A DNA stretch of 64,000 nucleotides from Marinomonas balearica (lineage in GTDB: Bacteria; Pseudomonadota; Gammaproteobacteria; Pseudomonadales; Marinomonadaceae). A model generated the notes under the pieces. The model was not told where the DNA came from. It searched no databases and saw only the letters and a program-made list of their open reading frames with translations. Position numbers and translations under genes: made by a program. Shown here piece by piece: positions 35,677 through 39,015 of the stretch. Numbering within the stretch: position 1 is the first letter of the stretch; each line of letters begins with the position of its first letter. Where the stretch lies: contig NZ_SNXC01000010.1 of assembly GCF_004362145.1 (NCBI RefSeq), positions 434,001-498,000 of the forward strand. Direction: 5' to 3'.

Positions 35677-36366
35677 TTAACGTTTGACGATAAGGTTTAA
35701 GCCGTCTCGTACGTTTAAATGTACGTTTTCGACTCGTTCGTCGTTGAAAATGCGTTTGTTAGCAGTGTCAACTGCTATGTCGCTATTTTCAATGGGATCT
35801 AAAACGCGTCCTTGCCATAGAGAGTTGTCTATGATGATGAGTCCGCCGGAGCGAACAAGTGGGACAACTGCCTCGTAATAATTTAAATAGTTGCGTTTGT
35901 CTGCGTCAATAAAGACAAAATCAAATTCACCCGTTAGTGTTTCAATTGTCTCAAGTGCAGGGCCAAACTGAGTTTGAATCTTTTTTCCGTATGGGCTGCG
36001 GTCAAAAAAACGTTGAGCAAATTCAATTGCCCGAGGGTTGGTTTCACAACAAATTAGTTCGCCATCTTCCGCCATTCCTTCTGCTATAGACAAGGCGGAG
36101 TACCCAGTAAACATACCAATCTCAAGGGCTCTTTTGGGGCGAGTGAGTTTGGCGAGAAGTTTCAGGGTTCGACCTATGGTTTTTCCAGACAGTTTGTTTG
36201 GATACCCCATATCCGAGTAAGTCTTTTCTACTAACTCAACGAGTAAATCAGGCTCAGATTGTGTTGTATCTGTGCAATAGTCGTCTAAAAGAGTGTAATC
36301 CATAAGGCCTTGAGCTAGTTGGTTGTGAAACGGCGTCATTTTACCTTGGGTGTGGAGAATGTCCAT
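35677..36366 (-). CDS. SAM-dependent O-methyltransferase (COG4122 / caffeoyl-CoA type)
   Basis: A 229-aa class I methyltransferase of the cation-dependent catechol/caffeoyl-CoA O-methyltransferase family. Residues show KLLAKLTRPKRALEIGMFTGYSALSIAEGM (SAM motif I near 84-95), ELICCETNPRAIEFAQ, FDFVFIDADKRNYLNYYE (motif with metal ligands Asp) and GGLIIIDNSLWQGRVLDP, and it ends in RDGLNLIVKR. ATG 36366 gives a full-length protein; ATG 36339 with an AAGG upstream is an alternative. It is divergent from thrS and monocistronic. Bacterial members methylate diverse small phenols, and the substrate here is unknown. Confidence 0.88.
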   Translation of the reverse strand: MDILHTQGKMTPFHNQLAQGLMDYTLLDDYCTDTTQSEPDLLVELVEKTYSDMGYPNKLSGKTIGRTLKLLAKLTRPKRALEIGMFTGYSALSIAEGMAEDGELICCETNPRAIEFAQRFFDRSPYGKKIQTQFGPALETIETLTGEFDFVFIDADKRNYLNYYEAVVPLVRSGGLIIIDNSLWQGRVLDPIENSDIAVDTANKRIFNDERVENVHLNVRDGLNLIVKR

Positions 36367-36423
36367 GCCTAAATTGTAGAAAAAAAGGTTGATTTATTTG
36401 CATTCTTTTAAGTTGGGTATGGG

Positions 36424-36511
36424 GCGGGTATATGAATTGGATTCGCATGTTTTTATAAAAAATGTTAGTTTATACCGCTCAAAATTCCATGTGCTCTCTG
36501 GTATGGAGCAC
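36424..36511 (+). promoter_or_regulatory. thrS translational operator with tRNA-Thr anticodon-arm mimic
   Basis: Upstream of thrS, bases 36491-36511 form a 7-bp stem (GTGCTCT with GGAGCAC, the last pair U-G) and a 7-nt loop, C-T-G-G-T-A-T (36498-36504). Read as an anticodon arm this places U at 33 and GGU at 34-36, the anticodon of tRNA-Thr for ACC/ACU, followed by A37. A second stem further up pairs GCGGGTATA (36424-36432, one bulged G) with TATACCGC (36471-36478). This two-arm layout parallels the E. coli thrS operator, where ThrRS binds its own mRNA and blocks ribosome entry. The ribosome site AGGGG is at 36525-36529. Confidence 0.6.
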
Positions 36512-36535
36512 CACTGACTCCGATAGGGGAAAAAA

Positions 36536-38452
36536 ATGCCTGTAATTACATTGCCAGATGGCAGCCAACGTACTTTTTCTGAACCTGTAACGCTAATGCA
36601 AATTGCTGAGGATATTGGTCCTGGGCTTGCGAAAGCGACAGTTGCGGGAAAAATTAATGGAACACTCGTTGATGCTTGTGAAGTTATTGACGAAGATGCT
36701 GATGTGAGTCTTATCACGGGTAGGGATGAGGAAGGCCTTGAAATCATTCGCCACTCATTTGCCCATCTCGTTGGTCATGCTGTTAAGCAATTATTTCCAA
36801 CAGCCCAAATGGCAATTGGTCCAGTTATAAATGAAGGTTTTTACTACGACGTTGCATTTGAACGTCCGTTTACGCTTGATGATATGGCGGCAATCGAAAA
36901 GCGAATTGGCGAACTTATCAAAACGGATTATGACGTTGTTAAAAAAATGACGTCAATTCAAGATGCTCGTCGCCAGTTTGAAGAACGAGGGGAAACTTAT
37001 AAAGTTCAGCTTATTGATGATATGGATGAGTCGGTAAGCGAGGTGGGCTTGTATCATCATGAGGAATACATGGATATGTGTCGTGGGCCACATGTCCCTA
37101 ACACTCGTGTACTTCGTCATTTCAAATTGATGAAACTTGCTGGAGCTTATTGGCGCGGAGATTCCAATAATGAAATGCTTCAGCGTGTTTATGGAACGGC
37201 GTGGGCAGATAAAAAAGAGCTAAAAGCGTATTTGCTGCGTATCGAAGAAGCTGAAAAGCGTGATCATCGAAAATTAGGCAAAAAACTTGATTTGTTCCAT
37301 GTTCAAGAAGAAGCACCAGGTATGGTGTTTTGGCATCCTAAAGGCTGGAGCTTATATCAAATTGTTGAGCAGTATATGCGTCAAAAGCAACTTGATAATG
37401 GCTATCAGGAAGTAAAAACCCCTCAGATTGTTGACCGTGTACTTTGGGAAAAGTCTGGCCATTGGGGTAAGTATCAGGAAAACATGTTCACGACGCATTC
37501 GGAAAATCGCGATTATGCGGTTAAACCAATGAACTGCCCGTGTCACATTCAGGTTTATAACCAAGGCCTTAAAAGTTACCGCGATTTACCGTTCCGAATG
37601 GCGGAGTTTGGTTCATGTCATCGCAATGAGCCGTCTGGTGCATTGCATGGGATCATGCGTGTTCGTAACTTTGTTCAGGACGATGGACATATTTTCGTAA
37701 CTGAAAATCAAATTCAATCAGAAGTGTCTGAGTTTATTAAGTTGCTTCATGATGTTTATGCGGATTTCGGCTTTGAGCAGATCGTATATCGTCTTTCAAC
37801 ACGCCCTGAACAGCGGGTTGGTTCTGACGAAGTATGGGATAAAGCAGAGAAAGCATTGGCGGATGCGCTAAATGTCGCTGAATTGGATTGGGAAGAGTTG
37901 CCTGGAGAAGGTGCTTTTTATGGTCCTAAAATTGAATTCTCTTTGAAAGATGCTATTGGCCGAGTTTGGCAGTGTGGTACTATTCAGGTAGACTTCTCGA
38001 TGCCTACTCGTTTAGGCGCACAGTATGTTTCTGAAGACGGCTCTCGCCAAACACCTGTAATGTTGCACAGAGCAATAGTGGGGTCATTGGAAAGATTCAT
38101 CGGAATATTGATAGAAGAAACCGAAGGATCGTTCCCAGTTTGGTTGGCGCCTGAGCAGGTGGTGATCATGAATATTACTGATCGTCAGACCGAATACTGT
38201 GAAAAATTGGAAAAAACCCTAAATTCTAATGGGTTTAGATCAAAACTGGACTTGAGAAACGAGAAGATCGGGTTTAAAATTCGCGAGCATACTCTTCAAC
38301 GCATCCCATACTTAATTGTTGTTGGTGATAAAGAAGTTGAAAACGATCAGGTTGCAGTTCGAACTCGTTCGGGCGAAGACCTAGGTGTAATGAGTATAAC
38401 CCAATTCGAAGATTTGCTTCGTGAAGAAGTTGCTCGTCGTAGTCGAAAATAA
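36536..38452 (+). CDS. thrS: Threonyl-tRNA synthetase
   Basis: Charges tRNA-Thr and edits misacylated Ser-tRNA. The 638-aa protein has a TGS domain (1-60), the editing domain with [11 protein letters not shown] (about 73) and the CRGPHVPNT segment (about 182), the class II core with [13 protein letters not shown] (zinc Cys, about 333), [26 protein letters not shown] (motif 2) and [19 protein letters not shown] (motif 3), and the anticodon-binding domain (about 535-638). ATG at 36536 follows AGGGG. The leader carries a tRNA-like operator, so autoregulation by ThrRS is likely. infC follows directly, as in E. coli. Confidence 0.98.
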
Positions 38453-38469: not shown

Positions 38470-39015
38470 ATAAAAGGTAATATGAATCGTGGGCGCAATA
38501 ATAAACAGCAGCGCCCTCAAATCAACGAAAACATTGCAGCTACCGAAGTGCGCTTAATCGGTGCTGACGGTAATCAAGTGGGTGTTGTTTCGATTGAGGA
38601 AGCACTGGATGCCTCTCGCGCAGCGGCACTAGACCTAGTGCAGATTGCAGATTCAGATCCGATTGTTTGCAAAATCATGGACTACGGCAAGCATGTTTTT
38701 GAGCAGAAAAAAGCTAAAGCCGCTCAAAAGAAAAATGCGAAGCAAATCCAGGTTAAAGAAATGAAGTTCCGACCAGGGACGGAAGAAGGGGATTATCAGG
38801 TAAAACTCCGCAACCTGATACGTTTCCTAGAAGGTGGAGACAAGGCCAAAGTATCTTTACGATACCGTGGTCGTGAAATGGCCCATCAAGAGCTTGGCAT
38901 GCAGCTTATGAATCGAGTCGCTCAAGACTTAGAGGAATATGGTGTAGTTGAACAAGCCGCGAAAATGGAAGGTCGTCAATTGACGATGGTGCTTGCTCCC
39001 AAAAAGAAGAAGTGA
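38470..39015 (+). CDS. infC: Translation initiation factor IF-3, probable AUA start
   Basis: IF-3 keeps 30S subunits free and checks start codons. The C-terminal and N-terminal domains are clear: [63 protein letters not shown] and [12 protein letters not shown] place the start at ATA 38470 (I-K-G-N-M-N-R), giving 181 aa. It has GGAG at 38458-38461 at good spacing, and the extra residues match the I-K-x-x-M pattern I recall for Pseudomonas IF-3. A non-canonical start is the known basis of infC autoregulation. ATG 38482, four codons on, with a weaker AAGG, is the alternative. The stop of thrS is 17 bp upstream. Confidence 0.95.

Follow-up and report, generated by a model that had tools for sequence, protein, structure and literature searches.

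In E. coli, threonyl-tRNA synthetase (ThrRS) represses thrS through domains 2 and 4 of an operator, according to passages in three papers (PMC11088916, PMC9976931, PMC3858243), and the passages in two of them describe an operator of two arms that are both recognised by ThrRS (PMC11088916, PMC9976931). The thrS leader of Marinomonas balearica, which lies within the 64,000-nt stretch of DNA analysed here (the window), raises the question of whether ThrRS is controlled in the same manner in this genus, through how many arms, and which bases of the anticodon-like loop are read.

The anticodon-like arm upstream of thrS

The first-pass annotation of the leader had described a 7-bp stem closed by the 7-nt loop CTGGTAT at 36491-36511, and this was confirmed exactly when read from the sequence. 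The features between the predicted transcript start and the end of thrS are as follows (positions are those of the window).

36478..36490, + strand: A/U-rich segment from the predicted mRNA start to the arm (mean conservation 0.82 over 36472-36488, 48 leaders)
36491..36497, + strand: GTGCTCT, 5' half of the anticodon-like stem (53 distinct arms compared for covariation)
36498..36504, + strand: anticodon-like loop CTGGTAT, positions 32-38 (G35 and U36 invariant, base 34 variable)
36505..36511, + strand: GGAGCAC, 3' half of the anticodon-like stem (covariation, genus conservation, RNAalifold)
36512..36516, + strand: conserved 3' flank CAC-TG adjoining the arm (193 arms compared)
36525..36529, + strand: Shine-Dalgarno-like AGGGG (read from the sequence)
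36536..38452, + strand: thrS, threonyl-tRNA synthetase, 638 aa, with TGS, tRNA_SAD, class II core and HGTP_anticodon domains

The two strands of the stem are joined by six Watson-Crick pairs and a closing T.G pair, and loop positions 32 to 38 read C U G G U A U. The Shine-Dalgarno-like stretch stands 13 nt past the arm and 6 nt ahead of the thrS ATG, and mean conservation is 0.93 over positions 36521-36535, which span it (genus alignment). With regard to the split ribosome-binding site of the E. coli operator, in which single-stranded segments flank the arm, the A/U-rich segment sits upstream of the arm and the transcript 5' end would fall there. At the foot of the arm, CA at 36488-36489 is able to pair with TG at 36515-36516, and in 53 sequences compared 99.1% of cells retain these pairs. 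A longer helix below CA/TG was tried and rejected, the mean run being 2.75 against 2.68 in shuffled sequences, with 352 of 2000 shuffles as high (123 non-genus leaders).

Folded alone, the window leader has no advantage over shuffled versions of itself (z -0.52; 61/200 shuffles at least as good). Moreover, 26 of 122 leaders contain one or more additional hairpins in which 6 or 7 of 7 pairs form and GU occupies loop positions 35-36; some of these hairpins may be true second arms. Because the leader fold is ordinary and further GU-loop hairpins are frequent, neither the arm nor the second stem proposed upstream of it stands beyond chance on one sequence. It is comparison across genomes, not single-sequence folding, that sets the arm apart from chance.

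Conservation of the arm and its counterpart in E. coli

Each of the 48 Marinomonas genomes searched has the arm, at roughly -45 relative to the start codon, and 333 of its 336 pair cells (99.1%) are formed across the 48 leaders. Conservation in these leaders is 0.98 for 36489-36520 and 0.51 for 36411-36441. When RNAalifold was given 47 distinct genus leaders with the arm included, the arm was recovered (-7.64; 0/50 column shuffles as low). The first-pass annotation had proposed covariation as a check on both of its stems, and the anticodon-like stem does covary: in a set of 53 distinct arms that combines the genus with E. coli and further Gammaproteobacteria, pairing holds in 96.9% of cells (shuffled mean 88.0), changes on both sides occur in 6 of 9 pairs against 2.7 when shuffled (2/500 shuffles as high), and covariation scores 0.358, compared with 0.180 for the shuffles (none of 500 reaching it). 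The flank is equally constrained. Over 193 arms, in which species common to both collections were left unmerged and 126 sequences are distinct, column 25 is C in 193/193, column 27 is C in 192/193 and column 28 is T in 193/193.

The E. coli K-12 thrS leader reads GTGATCT-TTCGTGT-GGGTCAC-CACTG at the same place, an arm that we identify, from its sequence, as the known domain 2 of the thrS operator. The CGU loop that had been quoted for E. coli is borne out, since CGU occupies positions 34-36 of the K-12 loop TTCGTGT. The Marinomonas arm is the counterpart of domain 2: it has the same 7-bp stem and 7-nt loop, the same GU at 35-36 and the same CACCACTG flank, and it likewise stands a few tens of nt before the thrS AUG and is followed by a Shine-Dalgarno sequence. 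Where the E. coli loop reads CGU, however, the window loop reads GGU and base 34 drifts. As an independent hint, a SNP in the thrS 5' UTR is reported from borrelidin-selected E. coli strains, with the suggestion, made without a test, of reduced autoregulation (PMC13148393); this SNP maps to conserved column 27 of the CAC flank.

Could the repeat act otherwise, as a palindromic repressor site in DNA or a plain mRNA-stability hairpin, instead of as a ThrRS operator? In favour of this, the inverted repeat is nearly perfect and stands near a predicted promoter. However, its compensatory changes and tolerated G.T pairs fit RNA, its invariant loop bases and narrow distance to the gene fit an RNA bound by an anticodon-binding protein, and the arm is homologous to a proven operator arm, leaving this explanation with hardly any probability in our estimate.

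Control of threonine-linked genes from a leader is also known from T-boxes and the thr operon leader (Thr_leader, RF00506), which act by transcriptional attenuation. The window leader resembles these in being threonine-linked, but it has no such Rfam match and no terminator: neither T-box nor Thr_leader was found at gathering score or, between 36380 and 36560, with E values as high as 10, and no intrinsic terminator was found within 36340-36560. The only Rfam hits to the window leader were IRE_II (14.4, gathering 30) and freshwater-2 (14.2, gathering 49.9), both far below threshold.

Distribution across the Gammaproteobacteria

A covariance model of the arm, 31 positions long, was searched against sampled genomes at three taxonomic levels. 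At class level it matched in 126 of 369 genomes (131 matches), with no match under strict filters in the other 243. Most of the matches are next to thrS: in 124/131, from 123/126 genomes, the gap to the first ThrRS codon in the alignment is 5-44 nt (median 12.5), and one further match, in G359, precedes the N-terminal piece of a thrS that is cut by the end of a split contig. There were matches in 132 of 194 genomes at order level and in 48 of 299 at phylum level, 45 of the latter within the class, the distance to thrS being computed for the class-level matches only. No Rfam 15 family covers the arm in the window or in the nine relatives searched. The E. coli textbook case of RNA mimicry is shown to be widespread in the Gammaproteobacteria, yet it is without an Rfam 15 match in these ten; the literature searched, which omits most subscription papers, yielded no survey of this element across the class.

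Once G359 is counted as thrS, six of the 131 class matches lie away from thrS. Three of them, considered as operators of other genes, were rejected as they fall within long open reading frames and are apparently chance matches. A fourth, in G352, duplicates 42 bp of the thrS leader (L175:990-1031 against L174:944-985, 41/42 identical), with no ThrRS sequence in 4 kb and no frame of 100 codons over the copy; it is possibly a decoy or a remnant. The remaining two, in G112 and G361, had no ThrRS match in the stretches examined. Similarly, the three matches outside the class (f240) had no ThrRS match within 1.5 kb around, and weak second matches at order level in G421, G553, G575 and G589 (L263-L266) had none in the stretch. 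In some other Gammaproteobacteria a tRNA gene lies upstream of thrS (L051:744-817, L048:253-326), which on our reading of the alignment would be tRNA-Val with anticodon GAC.

Loop bases and the isoacceptor question

The GGU loop had led the first-pass annotation to suggest that the operator tracks a different isoacceptor from that of E. coli, with GGU expected to be invariant. The second and third bases behave as expected and the first G is free. G35 and U36 are invariant in 48/48 Marinomonas genomes. The seed set, A1, had itself been selected for loops with GU, which makes GU invariance among model matches alone partly circular, and the arms were also anchored on the 3' flank alone with the loop disregarded. 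Across 213 leaders, many of which had been found with the model, GU occupies 35-36 in 190/190 anchored arms; the 23 leaders without an anchored arm include paralog-free ones from Methylophaga, Neisseria, Psychrobacter and records labelled Prochlorococcus. Among loci outside the genus that were found by protein only, 50 of 70 could be anchored and GU was at 35-36 in 50/50. These two tests offset the circularity only where leaders retain the 3' flank.

Base 34 is G in 33, C in 9 and A in 6 of the 48 Marinomonas genomes. It is G in 75, C in 50, A in 18 and T in 2 of 145 other thrS-proximal arms (156 model matches minus four rows that were truncated or gapped and seven that were distal or duplicates). 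The tRNA genes retrieved do not follow these changes. A tRNA-Thr pattern was run on 11 Marinomonas genomes, three of which have CGU mimics and five AGU mimics; it gave two tRNA-like strings that recur, one with UGU and one with GGU, and could miss a tRNA whose loop differs. We take it that an E. coli-like tRNA-Thr(CGU) would be caught by this pattern. ARAGORN confirms both strings as tRNA-Thr in G028 (AGU mimic) and G010 (CGU mimic), and found four tRNA-Thr(UGU) and one tRNA-Thr(GGU) in the window genome; all 14 pattern matches with C34 (5) or A34 (9) were not tRNA genes by ARAGORN.

Sensing of a single isoacceptor, tRNA-Thr(GGU), on the grounds that the loop reads GGU, is very improbable when set against these counts. 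The window loop is GGU, this is the commonest triplet both in the genus and elsewhere, the window genome has the corresponding tRNA gene, and the identity table in part of one review includes G34 beside G35 and U36 for bacterial Thr (PMC9976931). However, base 34 is C or A in 15/48 genus genomes, the mimic of E. coli is CGU, and the eight of these 15 whose tRNA genes were sought gave only UGU and GGU tRNA-Thr, allowing for a tRNA that escapes the pattern. The proposal that the operator tracks a different isoacceptor was accordingly abandoned. G35 and U36 are described as ThrRS recognition elements in a passage of PMC4267643, and the simplest reading is that ThrRS would read 35-36 while base 34 drifts. 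What is fixed in the element is GU, the CAC-TG flank and the stem geometry; what is free is base 34.

One arm or two

A second stem had been proposed upstream by the first-pass annotation. On paper it can form in the window sequence, 36424-36432 (GCGGGTATA) with 36471-36478 (TATACCGC), giving 8 pairs and one bulge. It is not conserved in the genus. Across the 48 Marinomonas leaders, 140 of its 352 ungapped cells are paired (39.8%), near the 37.5% expected from equal base frequencies and far from the value for the arm. For 47 distinct genus leaders, RNAalifold left the 80 nt preceding the arm entirely unpaired (energy 0.00). The stem at 36424..36478 (+ strand) was therefore rejected as an operator domain, on its pairing, on the lack of a consensus structure and on its overlap with a conserved promoter-like element:

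36442..36447, + strand: TTCGCA, the -35-like hexamer in the promoter predicted for thrS (48 aligned genus leaders)
36463..36471, + strand: extended -10-like element TG-T-TAGTTT (genus alignment; predicted start near 36478)

Since the upstream gene is divergent (ORF 35677-36366, minus strand), the gap between the two genes would be expected to hold a promoter for thrS. Among the 48 genus leaders the -35-like hexamer is TTCGCA in 30, GTCGCA in 12 and TTAGCA in 3; the spacer to the -10-like element is 18 nt in 48/48; and the latter, TG-N-TA-NN-TT, has TG in 48/48, TA in 48/48 and TT in 47/48. We read the TG-N-TA element as a putative extended -10 promoter with the thrS transcript starting near 36478. 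A strict sigma-70 consensus scan found no promoter in the leader and the -10 matches just 3/6 consensus bases in 43/48 leaders, for which reasons the start site is given here as predicted. A start at this position would lie 13 nt before the arm and would therefore leave no room for a second one.

Two arms are present in some relatives. A scan for an upstream hairpin with 6 bp, a loop of 7 nt and GU as the fourth and fifth loop bases was positive in 22 of 141 non-genus leaders, any other dinucleotide giving at most 5/141, and in 1/48 leaders of the genus. The scan overlooks E. coli's own second arm and hence undercounts, and 11 of the 22 positives belong to one family, f3, so that the GU enrichment is inflated by kinship. 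For the 11 f3 leaders, RNAalifold predicted a second upstream hairpin (-11.73; 0/50 column shuffles as low). Examples of two-armed thrS leaders with an upstream GU-loop hairpin are Halopseudomonas (L068), Nitrincola (L065 and L072) and family f3; these share the proximal arm with Marinomonas, but the extra upstream hairpin is theirs and not that of Marinomonas. Tandem copies of the arm are seen in some leaders (L056, L168/G401, L252, L253, L255).

A full two-armed operator of the E. coli type, with transcription starting further upstream and a divergent second arm serving as domain 4, is unlikely in Marinomonas. It would accord with the upstream second arm that part of PMC11088916 describes in E. 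coli, with the upstream hairpins of the 22 leaders and of f3, and with the window fold, in which the three outer pairs of the proposed stem have a probability of about 0.7; the inner five, however, have 0.09-0.18. A divergent arm could also escape a scan that is blind to E. coli's own. Against this, the proposed stem pairs at close to the random rate, it has no GU anticodon-like loop, its region is far less conserved than the arm (0.51), the genus leaders share no consensus structure ahead of the arm and the promoter-like element falls between. To judge from the sequences, some relatives are two-armed and Marinomonas looks one-armed: where E. coli has two arms, the genus has no conserved second arm and a predicted 5' UTR that is short. 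Because a second arm, a defining feature of the E. coli operator, was looked for in the genus leaders and no conserved one was found, the leader is filed as a variant and not as a full E. coli-type member.

Competing fold with early thrS codons

In the window, the mean arm-pair probability is 0.89 for the leader alone and 0.01 when 30 coding bases are included. The difference arises because C32 in the loop lets UCUGGUA (36496-36502) pair with UGCCAGA (36550-36556) in the first thrS codons, and this predicted loss of the arm in the window species would count against the operator reading. C at loop position 32 is found in 2/48 genus leaders. With 30 coding bases, the arm keeps a probability of at least 0.5 in 34 of 37 distinct genus leaders, 3 falling below, and in 86 of 137 distinct non-genus leaders, 51 falling below.

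Proposed mechanism

Taken together, ThrRS autorepression through a one-armed operator homologous to E. coli domain 2, a variant of the known system, is in our view the probable function of this leader. Excess ThrRS unoccupied by tRNA-Thr would bind the arm loop through its C-terminal anticodon-binding domain, reading G35 and U36. The bound enzyme would cover the ribosome-binding site, which starts 13 nt downstream of the arm, and so lower thrS translation, and free tRNA-Thr would compete ThrRS off the arm. As the Marinomonas mRNA is predicted to begin about 13 nt upstream of the arm, it would carry one arm and no domain 4 arm. We infer ThrRS binding, translational repression, the transcription start and the one-armed stoichiometry in Marinomonas. 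The enzyme has the E. coli-like feature required, an anticodon-binding domain (PF03129) at residues 541-630, and its C-terminal 148 aa are 62% identical to E. coli ThrRS. The binding mechanism is proposed by homology on account of this region and of the E. coli precedent, in which arm-bound ThrRS blocks the ribosome, as stated in part of PMC3858243. Of the suggestion that the same mechanism operates as in E. coli, the operator arm stands, by its position, geometry, presence throughout the genus, covariation and invariant GU, while the second arm and isoacceptor tracking do not.

A more tentative idea, which we would not favour at present, is that one subunit of the ThrRS dimer holds the single mimic and the other is free for tRNA-Thr or a second thrS mRNA. 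If true, repression would read tRNA-Thr via a mixed mRNA-enzyme-tRNA complex, not via the symmetric two-arm clamp of E. coli. The Marinomonas leader offers a natural one-armed operator for asking whether dimeric ThrRS needs two arms to repress.

Other ThrRS-like genes and infC

A second full-length ThrRS, about 60% identical and without an operator arm, is found in G038 (L138:5037-7058) and also in G031 (L137) and G047 (L139). The G038 neighbourhood, the only one of the three that was read, resembles a zinc-starvation set; its neighbours, named by us from their sequences, are presumably CobW-like GTPase, FolE2-like, carbonic-anhydrase-like and dihydroorotase-like proteins. The window genome itself encodes a short ThrRS-like protein on contig C11 (L140:2647-3843, 398 aa, about 41% identical) that is without the N-terminal editing part. 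Similar short matches occur in at least ten other Marinomonas genomes, and no operator arm was found in the L140 stretch.

Downstream of thrS, the listed infC open reading frame starts at ATG 38482. An in-frame ATA (ATAAAAGGTAATATG, window 38470-38484) stands at the usual distance after GGAG, and it recurs (as the reverse complement) in several relatives within the genus. IF3 may start at this non-standard AUA; the start codon of E. coli IF3, AUU, is likewise non-standard.
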